Origin: an uncultured Anaerolineaceae bacterium
Lineage (GTDB): Bacteria; Chloroflexota; Anaerolineae; Anaerolineales; Anaerolineaceae
DNA: 41,155 nt
Assembly (NCBI GenBank): GCA_927443345.1
Contig: CAKMKJ010000009.1
Span: 1 to 41,155 of the forward strand
Reading direction: 5' to 3'
The translations under genes and the position numbers were made by a program. Shown here piece after piece: positions 5,025 to 25,965 of this stretch. Below the pieces are notes generated by a model. That model made no database searches and had not been told where the DNA came from. It worked only from the letters and a program-made list of their open reading frames with translations. How positions within the stretch are numbered: position 1 is the stretch's first letter; each line of letters opens with the position of its first letter.

Positions 5025-5786
5025 ATGAGTGACGAAAAGCGAATCACCCCGCGTTATATCGGACCTGACACCTCGGCGCGCACGGAGAAGATGAGCCGCG
5101 CCGAAATTCAGGGCAGGTTTGACAAAGAAGTGGCGGCGCTTTACAGCCAGCGCGATCCGATCTGGCTGCCAGAGTTCAGGCAAATGTTTGCCCTGGTACC
5201 CGAATTGCTCAAACCGCATGTCAAGCCTGGCAGCGTGATCCTCGATGTGGGGGCCGGCACAGGCAATCTTTCACGCAGCGTGCTGGAGGCAATCCCGGAT
5301 GTGCGCTGTGTGCTGATGGATTTTTCGGCCAACATGCTGTCGGCGGTTCCGCTGGTGCTGGCACCGTTTGCTGGGCGTTTTGAAACGCTGGTGGCAGATT
5401 TCATTGACGCAGATTACGGCGTTGCGCAATACGAGGCCATCATTTCCAGCTTCGCCATCCATCACTGCCGCGGCAGGGCGGAGTATGGCGGCTTATATCA
5501 GAAATTCGAGCAAGCGCTCAAAGCGGGCGGCATATTCGTCTGCTGTGACGTGGTCGCCGGTGCGGATGAGTCGCTCAGCCAACTCAACGAGAACGGCTGG
5601 CGCGCTTTCTTGAAGGAACAGGGATTAGTGGATGCCGAAGTGGATCGCATCCTCTCCAACTATCATGTGGAAGATTCGCCGATTGACTGTCCGTTACACT
5701 TGGAGCTGCTGAAAGAAGCCGGTTTCTCGATTGTGGATGTGGTTTGGAAGCGCAGTAATTTTGCGATCTACGTGGGTATCAAGTAA
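5025..5786 (+). CDS. Class I SAM-dependent methyltransferase
   Basis: A 253-aa protein. Motif I VILDVGAGTGNLS (residues 71-83) is the S-adenosylmethionine-binding loop of Rossmann-fold methyltransferases. The acidic end of strand 2 (CVLMDFSANML) and motif IV-like IISSFAIHHC follow in the right order. The C-terminal part (LKEAGFSIVDVVWKRSNFAIYVGIK) matches the beta 6-7 hairpin of small-molecule methyltransferases such as the UbiE/trans-aconitate type. Substrate unknown. It is coupled to the upstream cupin gene with a 3-bp gap. Confidence 0.88.
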   Translation: MSDEKRITPRYIGPDTSARTEKMSRAEIQGRFDKEVAALYSQRDPIWLPEFRQMFALVPELLKPHVKPGSVILDVGAGTGNLSRSVLEAIPDVRCVLMDFSANMLSAVPLVLAPFAGRFETLVADFIDADYGVAQYEAIISSFAIHHCRGRAEYGGLYQKFEQALKAGGIFVCCDVVAGADESLSQLNENGWRAFLKEQGLVDAEVDRILSNYHVEDSPIDCPLHLELLKEAGFSIVDVVWKRSNFAIYVGIK

Positions 5787-18078: not shown

Positions 18079-20082
18079 CTATGGAATACAACCTGCCTGG
18101 ATTATCGATGTTTGGCCTGAGGAGCCTGCCGTATTAAAAGCCTCAACACTGTAAGTATAGGGGCCGCCGTATGGAGGGGCGTCAGCATGCGAAGTTGAGT
18201 TTACGCCAAGTGTGGCCAATAAAGCGCCGTCGCGATAAACACGGAAGCCTGTCTCGTTGCTGCTCGTGTCTAACCATCTCAAGGTGAGCGAGTAGATCTG
18301 CCCATTGCATGCCAGGTTTTCAAAGTAAAGCTGTTGCGGTGCGCTGGGTATTTGCACTGAAACAGTAGGGGTGGCGGTAATGGTCGGTGTCGGGGTGGGC
18401 GGCGCCGGGATGACTGGAAGGTTTGAAATTGTGCCTACAGATTCCATGGCAGAGGCAGAAACCCAGCATTTTGGTTCGTTGTCTGGTTTGATCTGCAGCC
18501 AGGTAGAATTGGCATTCCTGCCGATGAGAGATGCTTTGGTTCCTTCGGGAAGCGCAAGATAGACTGCATACACTGTACCGGGGCCGTAACGGCAGTTGGC
18601 GCTGGTGATAAAACGCACAAAGGGTGAAGGTGTCGCGCTCGCCTGGATCTGGGTTGGCAGCACAGGCAGTGTTTCTTGAGGCGTTGTCTCAAGCAAGATC
18701 GCCAGCGGGGTATTGGTGGGTGCCAAAGGGGGTTCACCCAGAATAGGCTCGCGTTCATAGGCTCCGGCATCACAATTTGCGCCTTGCGGACGTGCTATCC
18801 CGCGCTGGTCTGTTGTTATACCAACTGCACAGGGGATCGAATCAATAACAGGGCTGTCATCCAGCAGGGCATGGGTGGGCAACCCGCTGCCGTTTACCTG
18901 AAGGGTTGAATCAACACCGGGGTAGAAATCCCAGGCGGCACGTTCTTCAGATTGCGGCTCACGGCAGGTGTTATCCGAATCGATATTGTTCAAACTGGTA
19001 ATGCGGGTGGTTGGCGCATCGCTGTAAATGGTTTGTAATTCACAATCCCGGCCATTGTAGACCAGCAGGCTGTTGGTGAGGTTGACGCGCAGGTCTAATA
19101 CATCAAGAGCTATCAACCCGGCACCAGGTTGGTTGGCAATGGTGACGTGTGTGAGGGCTGTTTCAGAATTTCTGCCAGCATAAAGCCCATTGCCGTCATT
19201 ACCGCTGATGGTTGAGTTGACCATTGAAAGCAGTTCACCCCCATTGCGGATCGTGTCAGAACTTGCCTCTGTGCTGGTATTGTTGTAAATGCTTGAATTT
19301 GTGATGTTGATAATTCCACCTTCTGTTACAGTGGAATCAGTCCCCATATTCAATATGGCGGAGGGATAGCCGCCGGTTGCATGATTATCAAAAATCGCCA
19401 CCCCATCCAGTTCGATATTAGCTCCCCGGTTGATGATGGGCGTGCCGTTATTGCCGGAAATTTCAGAGTTGCGGATCGATATATAAACACCGTCACCATA
19501 GGCCGAAATAGGATTATCGCCATTATTGATGATCTGGCTGTCAGAGATCGAGATGTTTGCAGTCACATCCAGATCATTGGCGTAGACTGCATTTAACCGG
19601 ATGTCTTGAAGGGTGACCTGGTTGAGGATCAATCTGCCACGCCCAACGCGGATGCCGATTTCACCTCCCTGGATGGTGAGGTTCTCAAAGCGAACCACGC
19701 CCCCGGCTGGCGGTAATGAAACAAAAATATGGTCATTAGATTCGGGGTTTGGTCCTGGAAGCCGGTTGATGACCACCGCACCCTCTCCGGTAAAGGTCAT
19801 CGATTGATAAAGAATTGGGATTTCGCTTTCGTCGTAGGTGCCGGCTGCAATATTGATGATCGCAACAGGAAGTTCGTTTGCTACAGTGACCACACGCTGA
19901 ATGCTGCGACATGCCGTCTCAGCTGTCTGGCAGTCATTGCTATCGCTGCCGGTAATGGCTGCAAATAAAACAGCATCTTCCAAACCGTCAAGCCCGCCTA
20001 TCGGAAGATTACATCCGGATATTAATACCAATAAGACCGTAAAAGTCAGTAATCTGGAAAACAAAAAACGTGCACTTGCCAT
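18079..20082 (-). CDS. Beta-helix lipoprotein with SH3-like and Fn3-like C-terminal domains
   Basis: 667 aa, ATG with GGAGGTG upstream. The signal peptide ends at lipobox LISGC. Residues about 40-410 form a right-handed parallel beta-helix of the right-handed-repeat (pectate-lyase-like) type, with recurring N-rich turns (ITNSSIYNNTS, VNSTISGNDGNGLYAG). A Thr/Pro linker follows, then an SH3-like segment (NCRYGPGTVYAVYLALPEG...CWVSASA), another linker and a terminal Fn3-like domain (RWLDTSSNETGFRVYRDG...SVEAFNTAG). The choice-of-anchor-like architecture suggests binding of envelope or extracellular polysaccharide. Its SH3-like NCRYGP segment also appears in the lipoprotein at 27680-28588. Confidence 0.85.
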   Translation of the reverse strand: MASARFLFSRLLTFTVLLVLISGCNLPIGGLDGLEDAVLFAAITGSDSNDCQTAETACRSIQRVVTVANELPVAIINIAAGTYDESEIPILYQSMTFTGEGAVVINRLPGPNPESNDHIFVSLPPAGGVVRFENLTIQGGEIGIRVGRGRLILNQVTLQDIRLNAVYANDLDVTANISISDSQIINNGDNPISAYGDGVYISIRNSEISGNNGTPIINRGANIELDGVAIFDNHATGGYPSAILNMGTDSTVTEGGIINITNSSIYNNTSTEASSDTIRNGGELLSMVNSTISGNDGNGLYAGRNSETALTHVTIANQPGAGLIALDVLDLRVNLTNSLLVYNGRDCELQTIYSDAPTTRITSLNNIDSDNTCREPQSEERAAWDFYPGVDSTLQVNGSGLPTHALLDDSPVIDSIPCAVGITTDQRGIARPQGANCDAGAYEREPILGEPPLAPTNTPLAILLETTPQETLPVLPTQIQASATPSPFVRFITSANCRYGPGTVYAVYLALPEGTKASLIGRNANSTWLQIKPDNEPKCWVSASAMESVGTISNLPVIPAPPTPTPTITATPTVSVQIPSAPQQLYFENLACNGQIYSLTLRWLDTSSNETGFRVYRDGALLATLGVNSTSHADAPPYGGPYTYSVEAFNTAGSSGQTSIIQAGCIP

Positions 20083-20136
20083 TTAACACCTCCATAACAC
20101 CTATAAAAAAATGCCACCAATTATGCGGTTAATAAA

Positions 20137-20165
20137 AGTATAGCATGTCAAAAAAGCAAAAACAA
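20137..20165 (-). promoter_or_regulatory. Probable promoter for the beta-helix lipoprotein gene
   Basis: On the minus strand, TTGTTT (20165-20160) and TATACT (20142-20137) are spaced 17 bp apart, about 55 bp upstream of the ATG. The -10 is close to consensus and the -35 only partly so. Confidence 0.4.
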
Positions 20166-20211
20166 TCCCGGATATTGATAAAGTTAGGCATAATATTATG
20201 GAAATAAAAGC

Positions 20212-20243
20212 AAAACCCCGCGGATTTTGATCAGCGGGGTTTT
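20212..20243 (-). terminator. Terminator of ino1
   Basis: The 10-bp stem AAAACCCCGC (20212-20221) pairs with GCGGGGTTTT (20234-20243) and is followed on the minus strand by a T-rich stretch. It lies 18 bp after the ino1 stop. T-runs on both sides could let it act in both directions. Confidence 0.8.
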
Positions 20244-20261
20244 TGATCGTTAAATTTTCAA

Positions 20262-21353
<1,092 letters not shown>

Positions 21354-21410
21354 TGGGTGTTTCCTCCTTTAAAGAGAGACGGTTTGACTGAGAATAATAA
21401 AGATAAAACC

Positions 21411-21444
21411 GTTGGAGCGCAATCACTCCAACTTGTCGATTATA
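21411..21444 (-). promoter_or_regulatory. ino1 promoter with inverted repeat at the start of transcription
   Basis: On the minus strand TATAAT lies at 21444-21439. A 7-bp inverted repeat GTTGGAG...CTCCAAC (21411-21417, 21426-21432) covers about +1 to +20, where a repressor or a 5' mRNA hairpin would act. No good -35 is seen. Confidence 0.35.
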
Positions 21445-21557
21445 ACAGAGGAGAGGTGAATTTATACCCAATTTGCATGGATGTGCATAAGTTTGTGCGT
21501 AAATTGCGCAACCGTGTGCGTTGGCGTGTGCGGCAGGCGTGGGCAAACACAAAAGTC

Positions 21558-21586
21558 TTGTCGAAAGGGGGCGGGACGGGTATAAT
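21558..21586 (+). promoter_or_regulatory. Promoter of tRNA-Pro
   Basis: TTGTCG (21558-21563) and perfect TATAAT (21581-21586) are spaced 17 bp apart, with transcription expected a few bases before the tRNA 5' end at 21597. The spacer is G-rich, which resembles the discriminator-like composition of stable-RNA promoters. Confidence 0.75.
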
Positions 21587-21596
21587 CGCACTTGTT

Positions 21597-21671
21597 CGGG
21601 GCGTGGCTCAGCCCGGCTAGAGCACCCGGTTCGGGACCGGGAGGTCGGCGGTTCAAATCCGCCCGCCCCGA
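21597..21671 (+). tRNA. tRNA-Pro (anticodon CGG)
   Basis: A 75-nt cloverleaf. The acceptor stem is CGGGGCG (21597-21603) with CGCCCCG (21664-21670), discriminator A at 21671. The D-arm is GCTC...GAGC. The anticodon stem CCCGG/CCGGG encloses loop TTCGGGA with anticodon CGG at 21632-21634. The T-arm GGCGG/CCGCC has loop TTCAAAT. CCA is not encoded. It reads proline codon CCG. It has its own promoter and directly borders the AT-rich region, and pieces of its 3' half recur downstream. Confidence 0.96.
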
Positions 21672-21679
21672 CAATTACA

Positions 21680-21721
21680 TTACTGTCATCGCGAGACAGA
21701 TTCATCGTCGAAGCGATCCCC
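21680..21721. repeat. REP-like dispersed repeat
   Basis: TGTCATCGCGAGACAGATTC followed by GTCGAAGCGATCCCC resembles the widespread GTCATTGCGAG...CGAAGCAATC type of intergenic repeat. It forms part of the junction after the tRNA. Confidence 0.4.
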
Positions 21722-21876
21722 AACTAAACCAATTTCTATAATATAATATCGTTTCCAAGGGCAAGATTTTTCATTGCTCCCATAATGTTTACCAGTTTGG
21801 GGATTTAATTGGTATTTTTTCCTAATTAGAATTTCATTCCAGTTTTTACTCTTGAGTTCAACAATCCAGAGGAAAA

Positions 21877-22185
21877 ATGGATCAATATGATGGAAATTAT
21901 GTCTGGTTGCTGGTTGACCCTCCAACACCTTCAAGTTGGATACCATCTCACAAAGAATGCTTGAACTATAAGTACATCAAGATGTCACAATTATGTCGAA
22001 TTGATCCAAAACGCATAGGTCGGAAAATGCGTGCTTGTGAAGCTTTTGGAGGGGACAGTGGAAGAAACGAGGTGCAAGAGGACAGGAAAGCCAGAACGGT
22101 GAAACATGGAAAGAGCGTTCGTAAATATGTACTCACTCCTGCTGCGATTGATTATTTGAAAGAAGTAGGGATCACGGATTGGTGA
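21877..22185 (+). CDS. Hypothetical protein in AT-rich island
   Basis: 102 aa. AGAGG sits before the ATG. Soluble, basic in the second half, ending SVRKYVLTPAAIDYLKEVGI, a short helical tail reminiscent of a DNA-binding wing-and-helix end but not diagnostic. Two pairs of residues (GRKMRACEAFGG) suggest a turn-helix pattern. No family recognised. It may be a fragment, since it sits just inside the tRNA junction in low-GC DNA. Confidence 0.5.
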   Translation: MDQYDGNYVWLLVDPPTPSSWIPSHKECLNYKYIKMSQLCRIDPKRIGRKMRACEAFGGDSGRNEVQEDRKARTVKHGKSVRKYVLTPAAIDYLKEVGITDW

Positions 22186-22429
22186 TCATTGTTTTATCTG
22201 AAAATCACCATTTCCAAGAAACGCACAGCAGCACAATTTAATTCCTGGCAAAGCTATTAAACCCTTGAATAATTTGGAGAGATCGTTACAAAGCTGCTTA
22301 CTTTCCAGTCACAATATAAAGCCATGACGATTAAACTTGATTCAGCGATCTCTGGATTAGTTGATTTTCTAAAAGAGCATGGAATCACTTTGCCAAAACA
22401 ATATTTTTTTTTCGAAAGGGGAAACGGAA

Positions 22430-22981
22430 ATGAAGAAAAAATCAATAAAACCAATAAAACCAATTACTAAATACATTATTTATCCCGTGATTGCGGGAGT
22501 AATTATATTTGTTCTTCAACTCATTATCCCCAATATCTGGAAGAATTTGGCTAAAGTAGTTAGCGCTATTTTTATTTTCTTGGGATCTTCTGTATTAATA
22601 AAATGGTGGGTGTTTATTTTATTGTTATTAGTTGTTTTGCTTTTTATTACCGGAATTATTTTCTTAATGATAATTTTCGGTAAAAAACCAGGATTGCATT
22701 GGTCTGATTATAAACAAGACGGTATTGACGGAGTGTTATGGAAATGGGATTATGATGGTAATACTTTAGCGGCAGATGGTTTTTCCGCATTTTGTCCCAA
22801 TTGTAAAAAAAGGTTGTTATATAGTTATGAAGGATATAATTCTAAATATTACTGTGACCGATGTGATGAATTCCGTTTTATCAAGCGTGGGAATCATGAA
22901 GATATAATCGCAAATCTTTATCGTGAGATAGAACGTCGAATACATACTGAAGAATGGAAGGAAAATTTTCAAAAACGATGA
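22430..22981 (+). CDS. Two-helix membrane protein with C-terminal zinc ribbon
   Basis: 183 aa. The ATG at 22430 is preferred over an upstream in-frame start at 22379, because AAAGGGG at 22415-22421 precedes it. The N-terminus is basic (MKKKSIKPIKPITK). Two membrane helices follow (about 18-35 and 60-85). The C-terminal domain holds CPNC and CDRC about 25 residues apart, a classic zinc-ribbon knuckle pair, with LHWSDYKQDGIDGVLWKWDYDG before it. Such proteins may be cytosol-facing sensors or nuclease partners; none is identified. AT-rich and codon-biased unlike the core genome, which suggests acquisition. Confidence 0.75.
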   Translation: MKKKSIKPIKPITKYIIYPVIAGVIIFVLQLIIPNIWKNLAKVVSAIFIFLGSSVLIKWWVFILLLLVVLLFITGIIFLMIIFGKKPGLHWSDYKQDGIDGVLWKWDYDGNTLAADGFSAFCPNCKKRLLYSYEGYNSKYYCDRCDEFRFIKRGNHEDIIANLYREIERRIHTEEWKENFQKR

Positions 22982-22986
22982 CAGAA

Positions 22987-23016
22987 TCGGATAGTTTTTC
23001 ATGACCGGGAGGTCGG
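22987..23016 (+). repeat. Direct repeat A with tRNA-Pro 3' fragment
   Basis: The last 14 bp, GACCGGGAGGTCGG (23003-23016), are identical to 21635-21648 in the tRNA anticodon arm and variable loop. The whole 30-bp unit matches 25217-25246 at about 26 of 30 positions. It lies in non-coding DNA just after the zinc-ribbon gene. Confidence 0.75.
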
Positions 23017-23031
23017 TAAAAAAATTATCTT

Positions 23032-23057
23032 ATGGTGATTATCTATGAAATCACCAT
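23032..23057. repeat. 9-bp inverted repeat upstream of the xylanase-like gene
   Basis: ATGGTGATT (23032-23040) pairs with AATCACCAT (23049-23057). Similar AATCACC motifs occur near 22199 and 25173. It could be an operator or hairpin for the downstream gene. Confidence 0.35.
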
Positions 23058-23171
23058 TAATGCGTTTTTCCATTTATAAGGCAGTTGGTCTCGATAAATG
23101 AGCAACTTATTGTCCAATTGAGAAAAATTTTTGTAAGTAATAAATATTATCCAACAAAATTGAGGAACAGA

Positions 23172-25079
23172 ATGAAAAAAATTGCCTATTCTTTGTTTGT
23201 CATTGTTTTTCTAATTTGTTCATGCAATCCTACTAATAAAACTATAAATGAATCAGAATTTACTATTCCAATATCAACTGATATCAATCCAACACCAACA
23301 GAACAACCAAAAGTAACAACAATTGTAGATTCATTTATGTTTTACAATCCAACTTCGAAAAATTATCACGAATTGGTAGAAATACCTGTTGGGACTAAAC
23401 TCACTCCATTAGGGAAATTTGGGGAATTCATTAAAATAGAATACTTGAATTCAATTGGTTATGTCCCCTCAGTTAAACTATCAGAATTAACTATGAAAGT
23501 CCCTGAAATTTCGAGAGCAGAAATTGAACCTTTAAAAATAAATTTAATAGATTATGTTTATGAAATTAATTCTTTTAAAGAAAATGGAAAATTAATAATT
23601 GATAATATGGATTCTGATCAATATGCCGGAAATGACATAGGACCTTTTGATATTTCAGAACCGGTATCAATAGATCTTCAGTTTTCATCAGAAGGTCAAA
23701 CACAAGGAGTTGTGATCCTTTCAGGAAAATTGCCAGGTCTTCATTGGTGGGAAAATCGAAATTCGATGTTGATAAATGGAAATGGAAGAATTGACTTTTA
23801 TAATGGACAATCAGAGAATTCCTATTACTCTATTGAGCTCCCTCAAATAGCTGGTCAACGGATTTATATACAGGCCCAAGATATTTTTGGCAAAATAATC
23901 CTAATTAAGGATGACAAAGGAAAAATTGTTGCAACTTTGGATATTCCATATTTATCTGGTGGATTATTAAAAAATGGATTGTTTCCGGATAATGTTTTCT
24001 TTTTTCAGACCGTGGCAACACCTCATAGTAAATTAATGGTTCATAAATTCGACCTCTTACTGATCCCAGATGGAATATATCAACCAGAAACACCAACTCT
24101 ACGGGAGTTGGCCGATGAAAAAGGCAAATTATTAGGAACTGTTGTTGATTATGGACCTATGATTTTCAATTCAAAATATCAGGATCTAATTAAAGATAAT
24201 TTCAATGGGGCAACCATAACTTTCCATTGGTCTCAAATAGAACCTGAAAAAGGCGTATTCGATTTTTCAGCCGTTGATGTTGCTGTCGATTTTGCAATTC
24301 AAAATAATATGAAAATAACAGGATTACACCTGATTTATGGATGGACAGAATTAATGCCTGATTGGTTGGTAAATGGTAATCACTCAAAGGAAGAGCTGAA
24401 AAAAATCCTTTTTGAATATATAAATACCGTAGTCAGCCATTATAAGGGGAAGATTTATATTTGGAGCATCGCAAATGAATCCATAGGAAATATGATTTGT
24501 TGTGGAGGTGATTTTTGGTATAAAAAATTGGGTGAAGAATATATTGAATCATCATTTAAATGGGCCCATGAAGCTGACCCTAATGCATTGTTAATGCTAA
24601 ACGAATGTGATAATCAAAGTATTGAACATGAATATAATAAATTAAATGTTGAGCAAATGATTGACTTTATTACTACATGGAGGATTGACGGCACCCCGAT
24701 TGATGTTGTGGGAACTCAAATGCACGTCCTTTCTCCTTGGTCAAACAATGTGATTCCTACAAAAGAAGATTTTACTGAGACATTAAACCTGTTTATTGAT
24801 AATGGAATGCCAGTTTACATTACTGAATTTGATGTCAATCTTAATGCGTACCCTGGAGACCAAGAAACACGGTGGGAATATCAAGGAACAATATACAGAA
24901 ATATCCTAGAAACATGTTTGGAAATTCAAGAGTGTAAGGGGTTTAGTTTATTTGGATTATCAGATTATCTTACTTGGTATGATTATCTTCAAATACCTAA
25001 CGCTGAGCCTTTACCATTTGATGTCAATTTCCAACCTAAACCAGCTTATTATGCAATGTTTGATGTTTTATCAAAGTAA
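23172..25079 (+). CDS. GH10-type endo-beta-1,4-xylanase-like lipoprotein
   Basis: 635 aa from ATG 23172, with TGAGGAAC upstream; an earlier in-frame start at 23085 lacks an RBS and would hide the signal peptide. Lipobox: LICSC. An SH3-like repeat (FMFYNPTSKNYHELVEIPVG...) follows a Pro/Thr linker, then a jelly-roll-like domain (residues ~150-310). The catalytic (beta/alpha)8 domain has acid/base Glu436 in IWSIANESIG and nucleophile Glu552 in YITEFDVN, spaced as in family GH10. It probably cleaves xylan or a similar glycan outside the cell. AT-rich, bounded by repeats of the tRNA tail. Confidence 0.85.
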   Translation: MKKIAYSLFVIVFLICSCNPTNKTINESEFTIPISTDINPTPTEQPKVTTIVDSFMFYNPTSKNYHELVEIPVGTKLTPLGKFGEFIKIEYLNSIGYVPSVKLSELTMKVPEISRAEIEPLKINLIDYVYEINSFKENGKLIIDNMDSDQYAGNDIGPFDISEPVSIDLQFSSEGQTQGVVILSGKLPGLHWWENRNSMLINGNGRIDFYNGQSENSYYSIELPQIAGQRIYIQAQDIFGKIILIKDDKGKIVATLDIPYLSGGLLKNGLFPDNVFFFQTVATPHSKLMVHKFDLLLIPDGIYQPETPTLRELADEKGKLLGTVVDYGPMIFNSKYQDLIKDNFNGATITFHWSQIEPEKGVFDFSAVDVAVDFAIQNNMKITGLHLIYGWTELMPDWLVNGNHSKEELKKILFEYINTVVSHYKGKIYIWSIANESIGNMICCGGDFWYKKLGEEYIESSFKWAHEADPNALLMLNECDNQSIEHEYNKLNVEQMIDFITTWRIDGTPIDVVGTQMHVLSPWSNNVIPTKEDFTETLNLFIDNGMPVYITEFDVNLNAYPGDQETRWEYQGTIYRNILETCLEIQECKGFSLFGLSDYLTWYDYLQIPNAEPLPFDVNFQPKPAYYAMFDVLSK

Positions 25080-25216
25080 TTATTTTTTCCGTCAAAACAT
25101 ATTTTTATTATCTTTCACTCACAATATTGTGTTATGAAAGAAAATGCTTAATTATATAATTGCCAAAATTATGAAATATCACCGTTTATCAATTATGAAG
25201 CAAAATGGGTATTCTA

Positions 25217-25250
25217 TTGGATAAATTTTCATGTCCGGGAGGTCGGCGGT
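25217..25250 (+). repeat. Direct repeat B with tRNA-Pro 3' fragment
   Basis: CCGGGAGGTCGGCGGT (25235-25250) is identical to 21637-21652 of the tRNA, covering the 3' anticodon stem, variable loop and 5' T-stem. Upstream it matches repeat A at 22987. GTGCCCCGA follows, resembling the acceptor end. It marks the right end of the AT-rich stretch. Confidence 0.8.
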
Positions 25251-25293
25251 CACGTGCCCCGAAGGGGTATCAAAACCCTATAGAATATTTCCC

Positions 25294-25321
25294 TTGACAA
25301 AAAGAACAAAAGTTCTATAAT
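25294..25321 (+). promoter_or_regulatory. Near-consensus promoter with no close gene
   Basis: TTGACA (25294-25299) and TATAAT (25316-25321) are spaced 16 bp apart. The next ATG is 285 bp downstream. TTGACAAAAAGAA is also found at the promoter at 32424. It could drive a non-coding RNA or the membrane protein at 25606. Confidence 0.65.
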
Positions 25322-25605
25322 GATCTAGCTAAATGCGGTCGCCCTTTCTTTCGCATAAAGGTTTAGGATTCGTGCATAAAAACAAAAAACAAAGAACCAA
25401 TCAAAACCACTTTTTTGACTTCAAAATATTCGTTTTACCTGTGCCCGAGCAGAGCGAAGGGTATTCGTTTCTGATTTTTTTCTGAAACAAAAACGAATAA
25501 ATATAGATGAGATAAGGTGTAACATTGGCGAAATTTATATAAGAAATTCTTTAAAACCAATATGGTTTTAACATTTCCTCCCTATAATATCCACTGGAGC
25601 CGGAT

Positions 25606-25965
25606 ATGAAAAATAAGGCAATGCGGTTCATTATCATAATTCTCGTCATTACTGTCGTAACAGGCATTATCGTTTTGGTCATCGGCTTGATCAGCAAATG
25701 GCAGACCGATGTGCAGTATAGCGACGGGTATTTTTATGGTGGCGGGGTGCTGCTGTTGATCGGGCTGGTCAACGCCATGGGGGCGAGATCTGATGACCGG
25801 GTGGGCGGCATGGCTGATGGCCGCATCAGCACCCAGGAAAGGGAATCCAGTTACCATCTAATATCAGAAGACATTGCCAAAGCGAACCACCGCATGATTT
25901 ACATGGGCATTTCTGGGCTGCTGCTTTGGGGCGTGGCGGCGCTTGTTCCGCTGATCATGAAGTAG
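25606..25965 (+). CDS. Hypothetical membrane protein
   Basis: 119 aa, ATG 25606 with a weak AGCCGG upstream. Three hydrophobic segments: residues 6-30 (MRFIIIILVITVVTGIIVLVIGLI), 43-57 (FYGGGVLLLIGLVN) and 99-118 (YMGISGLLLWGVAALVPLI). The hydrophilic loop (GARSDDRVGGMADGRISTQERESSYH) between the second and third is probably cytosolic. No family recognised. GC content returns to core levels here. Followed by a bidirectional terminator. Confidence 0.7.
   Translation: MKNKAMRFIIIILVITVVTGIIVLVIGLISKWQTDVQYSDGYFYGGGVLLLIGLVNAMGARSDDRVGGMADGRISTQERESSYHLISEDIAKANHRMIYMGISGLLLWGVAALVPLIMK

Follow-up and report, generated by a model that had tools for sequence, protein, structure and literature searches.

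Partial copies of a tRNA-Pro(CGG) gene in an uncultured Anaerolineaceae bacterium as probable traces of tandem accretion at a phage attachment site

When the 3' half of a tRNA gene recurs behind the gene itself, the question arises of which elements have landed there, how many times, and what has become of the enzymes that brought them. Such a locus is found in an uncultured Anaerolineaceae bacterium (assembly GCA_927443345.1, contig CAKMKJ010000009.1, positions 1 to 41,155; this whole stretch is hereafter called the window), where part of a tRNA-Pro(CGG) gene is repeated twice around small AT-rich gene modules. We consider it probable (roughly 77%) that at least two elements accreted in tandem at a tRNA-Pro phage attachment (att) site, and that both have since been stripped of their integrases, with cargo left behind.

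Junctions behind tRNA-Pro(CGG) and their counterparts in prophages

The features that carry this reading are the following:

21597..21672 (+), intact tRNA-Pro(CGG) gene (ARAGORN; Rfam tRNA, 64.1 bits), the putative attB/attL attachment site
21637..21672 (+), 36-bp stretch reaching from the anticodon stem (3' side) to the tRNA end, duplicated at both ends of the prophage of relative G012
22986..23016 (+), putative inner attR-type junction, M: GGAT of the element arm at 22989, core at 23005-23016, no tRNA tail
25216..25250 (+), putative outer attR-type junction, F: GGAT of the element arm at 25219, core at 25235, with CGGT retained from the tRNA tail, ortholog in relative G001

The tRNA-Pro(CGG) gene is the sole tRNA called by ARAGORN in the window, and apart from it nothing reached the gathering score in the Rfam scan. 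Its core, CCGGGAGGTCGG, has exact matches in the window only at 21637, 23005 and 25235, which bears out the first-pass annotation, made from the letters of the window alone, in its claim that the tRNA tail recurs twice. The inner copy shares 14 identical bases with the tRNA (GACCGGGAGGTCGG, from 23003) and the outer copy 16 (CCGGGAGGTCGGCGGT, 25235-25250). The resemblance between the two copies that the same annotation had reported over about 30 bp is real, its measured extent being 27 of 31 ungapped positions (22986-23016 versus 25216-25246; 15 of 19 upstream of the core). Throughout the window's own genome (94 contigs, 3.67 Mb, 98.8% complete) the 21-mer common to M and F (one N) occurs at these two places and at one with 3 mismatches, beyond which no second set of the repeat was found. 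A scan of named genomes for the arm plus core returned one record, HGW-Chloroflexi-4, the records of the window's own genome having possibly been excluded.

Counterparts of these junctions were found in prophages of two relatives. In G012, the core at oriented position 5076 recurs at 42005, 36,929 bases away, and delimits a tailed-phage-like prophage of about 36.9 kb; the two repeats share 36 bases, from the core to the tRNA end, and the right flank known from the window resumes after the second copy. Beside the tRNA lies a gene for an integrase of 412 amino acids (aa) (phrog_1, E 1.8e-13; 26.9 bits with the integrase profile PF00589, just below the cut-off of 27.1), and the element encodes proteins of the terminase and major head families, together with a weak tape-measure match (E 8.2e-4). 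The prophage of G015 (about 34.3 kb) has its far repeat 34,326 bases off, at contig position 108134, with 39 bases shared, and terminase and major head families are again encoded between the repeats. Its integrase gene, beside tRNA-Pro(CGG), specifies a protein 46% identical to that of G012 and above the PF00589 cut-off (34.1 bits).

The window junctions resemble those of both prophages in having the same core and the same spacing of a GGAT motif. This motif stands 16 nt before the core in all five junctions compared (M, F, G001, and the attR sites of G012 and G015), of which F and the G001 junction share descent and are not independent, and it is present at that position in none of four tRNA copies, which read AGCA. 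Because GGAT is found at a fixed spacing where the tRNA reads AGCA, the most plausible interpretation of M and F is as attR-type junctions belonging to this type of integrase. The starting point of the repeats is immediately 3' of the anticodon loop: F and G012 begin with the first base of the core, M and G015 two bases before it. GGAT and the ATCC of the tRNA are approximately symmetric around the first core bases, from which we infer that strand exchange may take place there. The arms of G012 and G015 additionally hold an inverted copy of the 3' part of the tRNA (12/14 and 13/14 bases, respectively), matched as well by 1 and 0 of 500 shuffled arms.

Could the copies be chance matches, or an unrelated short tRNA-like repeat? 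The identity with the tRNA indeed covers only 14 and 16 bases. However, when 21673-25600 was resampled with a first-order Markov model (n = 2000), only 12 of the 2000 resamples contained so much as one of the 12-mers of the tRNA on either strand, whereas the window has two separate places, and the same core is used by two prophages. We therefore give coincidence next to no credence.

It may also be asked whether a single element integrated, F being its attR and M having arisen from F later, by local duplication or conversion. The likeness of M to F exceeds that of either to the G012 arm, and M has no tRNA tail, as such a history would allow. On the other hand, M retains two tRNA bases (GA) ahead of the core, as G015 does and F does not, and no wider duplication around M and F appears among the 20 largest of 22 direct-repeat families, which makes this explanation unlikely. 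Tandem accretion fits the two junctions, as did the serially built island envisaged in the first-pass annotation.

Fillings and integrases at tRNA-Pro in relatives

The tRNA core was searched for in 60 relatives and the window's own genome and was matched, within 3 mismatches, in 19 of these 61 genomes. The left flank through the tRNA shows 86-88% nucleotide identity in G001, G012 and G013, all of the same genus. The flanking chromosomal genes are:

20262..21353 (-), left flank, inositol-phosphate synthase gene (PF01658, E 3.1e-36), common to G001, G012 and G013
25606..25965 (+), right flank, gene for a 119-aa membrane protein, in G001 and G012 likewise located to the right of the filling

In G013, the right-flank gene has a 96-aa form, and the match to the window stops at 25784, where synteny is over. 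Four different fillings were found at this one locus: the window has its two small modules, G001 (which carries a junction orthologous to F) a stretch of about 4.7 kb that includes a Bmp-type lipoprotein gene, G012 the prophage, and G013 genes for Vsr, an ATPase, a C5 methyltransferase and a SocA/Panacea antitoxin. We read the locus, on this comparison of sequences, as an insertion hotspot. The first-pass suspicion that elements integrate at the 3' half of the tRNA is thus well supported, both by the four fillings at the orthologous locus and by the far repeats of the G012 and G015 prophages at the same core. The G013 filling includes a defence-like cluster (L026 5693-11101) with genes for Vsr, a response-regulator-like protein, a HATPase protein and the C5 methyltransferase.

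Remnants of att sites were sought in 14 locus sets, some of which stop at a contig end, so that misses are not proof; a copy outside the tRNA was seen in two of them (G001 and G009). In G009 (L028 5724-7217), tRNA-Pro is separated from a copy of its own 3' half by a 1.4-kb insertion with surE. This repeat begins further 5' than those of the phage junctions and brackets surE, and it is therefore not of the same junction type. The sequence to the right of the G009 copy resembles that beside the single tRNA in G004 and G006, and an empty site for this insertion seems to exist.

Sequence just to the right of F was inspected as well. The bases GCCCCGA found there are possibly a worn remainder of the tRNA tail. 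The idea that a hairpin there, CCCCGAAGGGG, belongs to an att structure was dropped, since a terminator or the worn tail of a tRNA could account for it. Further on, at 25294-25321, a TTGACA/TATAAT promoter overlaps the palindrome AGAACAAAAGTTCT, which we take to be a LexA/DinR-like motif. The same piece is present in G001 and twice in G013, around the genes for the SocA/Panacea antitoxin and a second protein, as if it had been duplicated there too.

Tyrosine recombinases at tRNA-Pro, beside which they were found in G012 and G015, were surveyed with the G012 integrase as a query. Matches were obtained in 23 of the 61 genomes; 30 loci were returned, and 26 of them (plus 7 other stretches) were scanned for tRNAs. 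The neighbour was tRNA-Pro at three loci (G012, G015 and G004), tRNA-Met at nine (one of them in the window's own genome), tRNA-Asn at one and tRNA-Gly at one, and 12 loci had none. What adjoins tRNA-Pro in G004 is an integrase relic with three stops, 0.7 kb away. In G002, 65 bases separate the end of an integrase gene (53% identity) from the end of its contig, whose sequence could be taken for the tail of this tRNA or for an inverted arm; with a tRNA-Pro on another contig of G002, this is suggestive only. Furthermore, G008 carries a different tyrosine integrase, unmatched by the G012 query, about 0.65 kb from tRNA-Pro(CGG) (L128 174-1337).

Cargo modules and the missing integrase

Block A extends from the tRNA to 23005 and block B from 23005 to 25235, each being closed by an attR-type junction. 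They contain three open reading frames (ORFs):

21877..22185 (+), module A, 102-aa ORF for which no family was found
22379..22981 (+), module A, 200-aa ORF, a zinc-ribbon-like membrane protein by eye only
23172..25079 (+), module B, GH10 lipoprotein gene, 635 aa from the ATG at 23172 (PF00331, E 1.3e-65)

The first-pass annotation had placed two genes between the repeat copies; this holds for the GH10 gene, which lies between M and F, whereas the zinc-ribbon-like gene lies between the tRNA and M. The AT-rich character reported for the modules was confirmed, the G+C fraction being 0.31-0.35 across 22001-25500 versus 0.47-0.51 across 19501-22000 to the left. The 200-aa ORF had no match in Pfam, PHROGs or PADLOC, and among 147 genomes of the family its protein is present in one, its own. 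The 102-aa ORF had no match in phage records, and neither of these two ORFs has a confirmed relative in viral contigs. For the GH10 protein, only partial matches (25-29% identity) were found elsewhere in the genus (16 genomes). Its lipobox was identified by eye, and alignment to xylanase 1vbr shows preserved NE and TE motifs, which we take to hold the catalytic Glu residues. Being AT-rich and lineage-restricted, the cargo looks foreign. An assignment of the cargo to phage or defence genes was rejected, as PHROGs and PADLOC assign none of the three module ORFs; no structural-gene PHROG was found in them, nor were integration or transfer genes of known families.

That no integrase is present, as had been noticed at the outset, was confirmed with PF00589, which has no match on the window's contig; an integron integrase beside the array was likewise not found. 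In the rest of the genome there are 10 PF00589 matches (contigs C2, C11, C31, C49, C52, C60 and C74). The one nearest to the G012 integrase is 38% identical to it and is encoded about 1.2 kb from tRNA-Met. A matching integrase of the tRNA-Pro type was not found in this genome, whose completeness of 98.8% leaves a missed copy possible.

These results bear on the idea that the modules are integrase-less satellites or cassettes that a tRNA-Pro phage integrase continues to mobilise in trans, M and F serving as working att sites. The 12-bp core is perfect in both junctions though the tail is missing or worn, and the modules are small, each comprising one or two genes of a single orientation, as would suit such elements. 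Yet the genome offers no integrase close to the tRNA-Pro type, the tRNA tail and inverted arm of both prophages are missing, and the 200-aa protein has no second copy in the family. It is doubtful from the sequence that M and F are functional attL/attR sites, because the tRNA tail is absent at M and mostly absent at F. The first-pass proposal of a satellite relying on an integrase elsewhere thus gained no positive support, the closest candidate being that beside tRNA-Met, and since loss of the integrases by deletion after integration suffices for the anatomy, dependence in trans is not needed. We regard such mobilisation as quite unlikely. One could also imagine a cassette-like array in which small integrase-less modules, ending in an att core and arm, come and go beside the tRNA by the action of integrases that visiting phages bring, in a manner somewhat like the acquisition of cassettes at the attI site of integrons; this seems improbable to us.

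Proposed history of the locus and known systems

Under tandem accretion, a clade of tyrosine integrases from phages of this genus would use tRNA-Pro(CGG) as its attachment site. Strands would be exchanged close to the anticodon stem, on its 3' side, so that an incoming element would restore the tRNA at one end and leave the other as element arm, core and old tRNA tail. At least two successive landings would have occurred in the lineage of the window, the later element lying beside the tRNA. Both elements may then have lost the integrase, most of the body and their mobility through deletion, with cargo blocks A and B remaining; the tail of M could have been removed by a deletion starting within the tRNA tail and running into module B.

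Several observations weigh against this course of events. The inner junction M does not have the tRNA tail expected of a fresh tandem junction. The arms of M, F and G001 do not carry the inverted tRNA copy (162, 390 and 283 of 500 shuffles, respectively, were as good), and consequently the window and G001 arms share with those of the prophages only the GGAT motif and its distance from the core. The cargo contains no recognised phage gene, the two PHROG rows obtained (E 0.09-0.1) being of unknown function. G013 has foreign cargo at the locus, yet a second att copy was not found there. Finally, tblastn with the G012 integrase gave no hit in the window at E up to 10, and integrase remains were rejected accordingly; this lowers the probability of a relic of a tRNA-Pro integrase element without excluding it, because a relic need not retain its integrase.

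Unlike the window, the G012 and G015 prophages possess genes for an integrase, for the head and for packaging; their tRNA tails are full, and their arms include an inverted tRNA copy. Dehalococcoides also belongs to the Chloroflexota, and CcrB-like enzymes are of the serine type. The tandem ssrA islands of Dehalococcoides are the closest precedent. According to the published account (PMC3146451), the RNA gene and repeated copies of its 3' end form the boundaries of these islands, and a conserved element motif immediately precedes each repeat; the repeat has 20 bp, exchange occurs in the T-loop, and the enzyme is CcrB-like. The same account reports that the vcr island is low in G+C and that 15 of 31 islands have no integration module, these being discussed as possible cis-mobilizable elements or fixed relics. 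Here, in contrast, the target is tRNA-Pro(CGG), the prophage repeats have 36 and 39 bp, the integrase is of the tyrosine type, and tailed-phage genes are involved. Integrative and conjugative elements (ICEs) and integrative and mobilizable elements (IMEs) are described (PMC5704250) as decaying and accreting into cis-mobilizable elements (CIMEs). The modules of the window resemble CIMEs in being decayed, in having no integration genes and in being stacked at a single target gene with att sites kept (PMC5704250). They differ in that most or all of the tRNA tail is gone from the junctions, functional att sites being only putative, and in that the parents seen here are prophages, not ICEs or IMEs. 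The best reading of the relics is that they are CIME-like or prophage remnants.

A literature search of partial coverage returned no title on this tRNA-Pro site in such genomes; absence from print is not claimed. The mechanism is ordinary and of the familiar genome-graveyard kind, here in an understudied group. Two short repeats on one contig become readable once relatives are compared, and in close relatives one tRNA-Pro locus is seen to gather a prophage, defence-like genes and surface proteins. For the temperate phages of a lineage that has received little study, the finding indicates an attachment site, a junction core and a likely clade of integrases.

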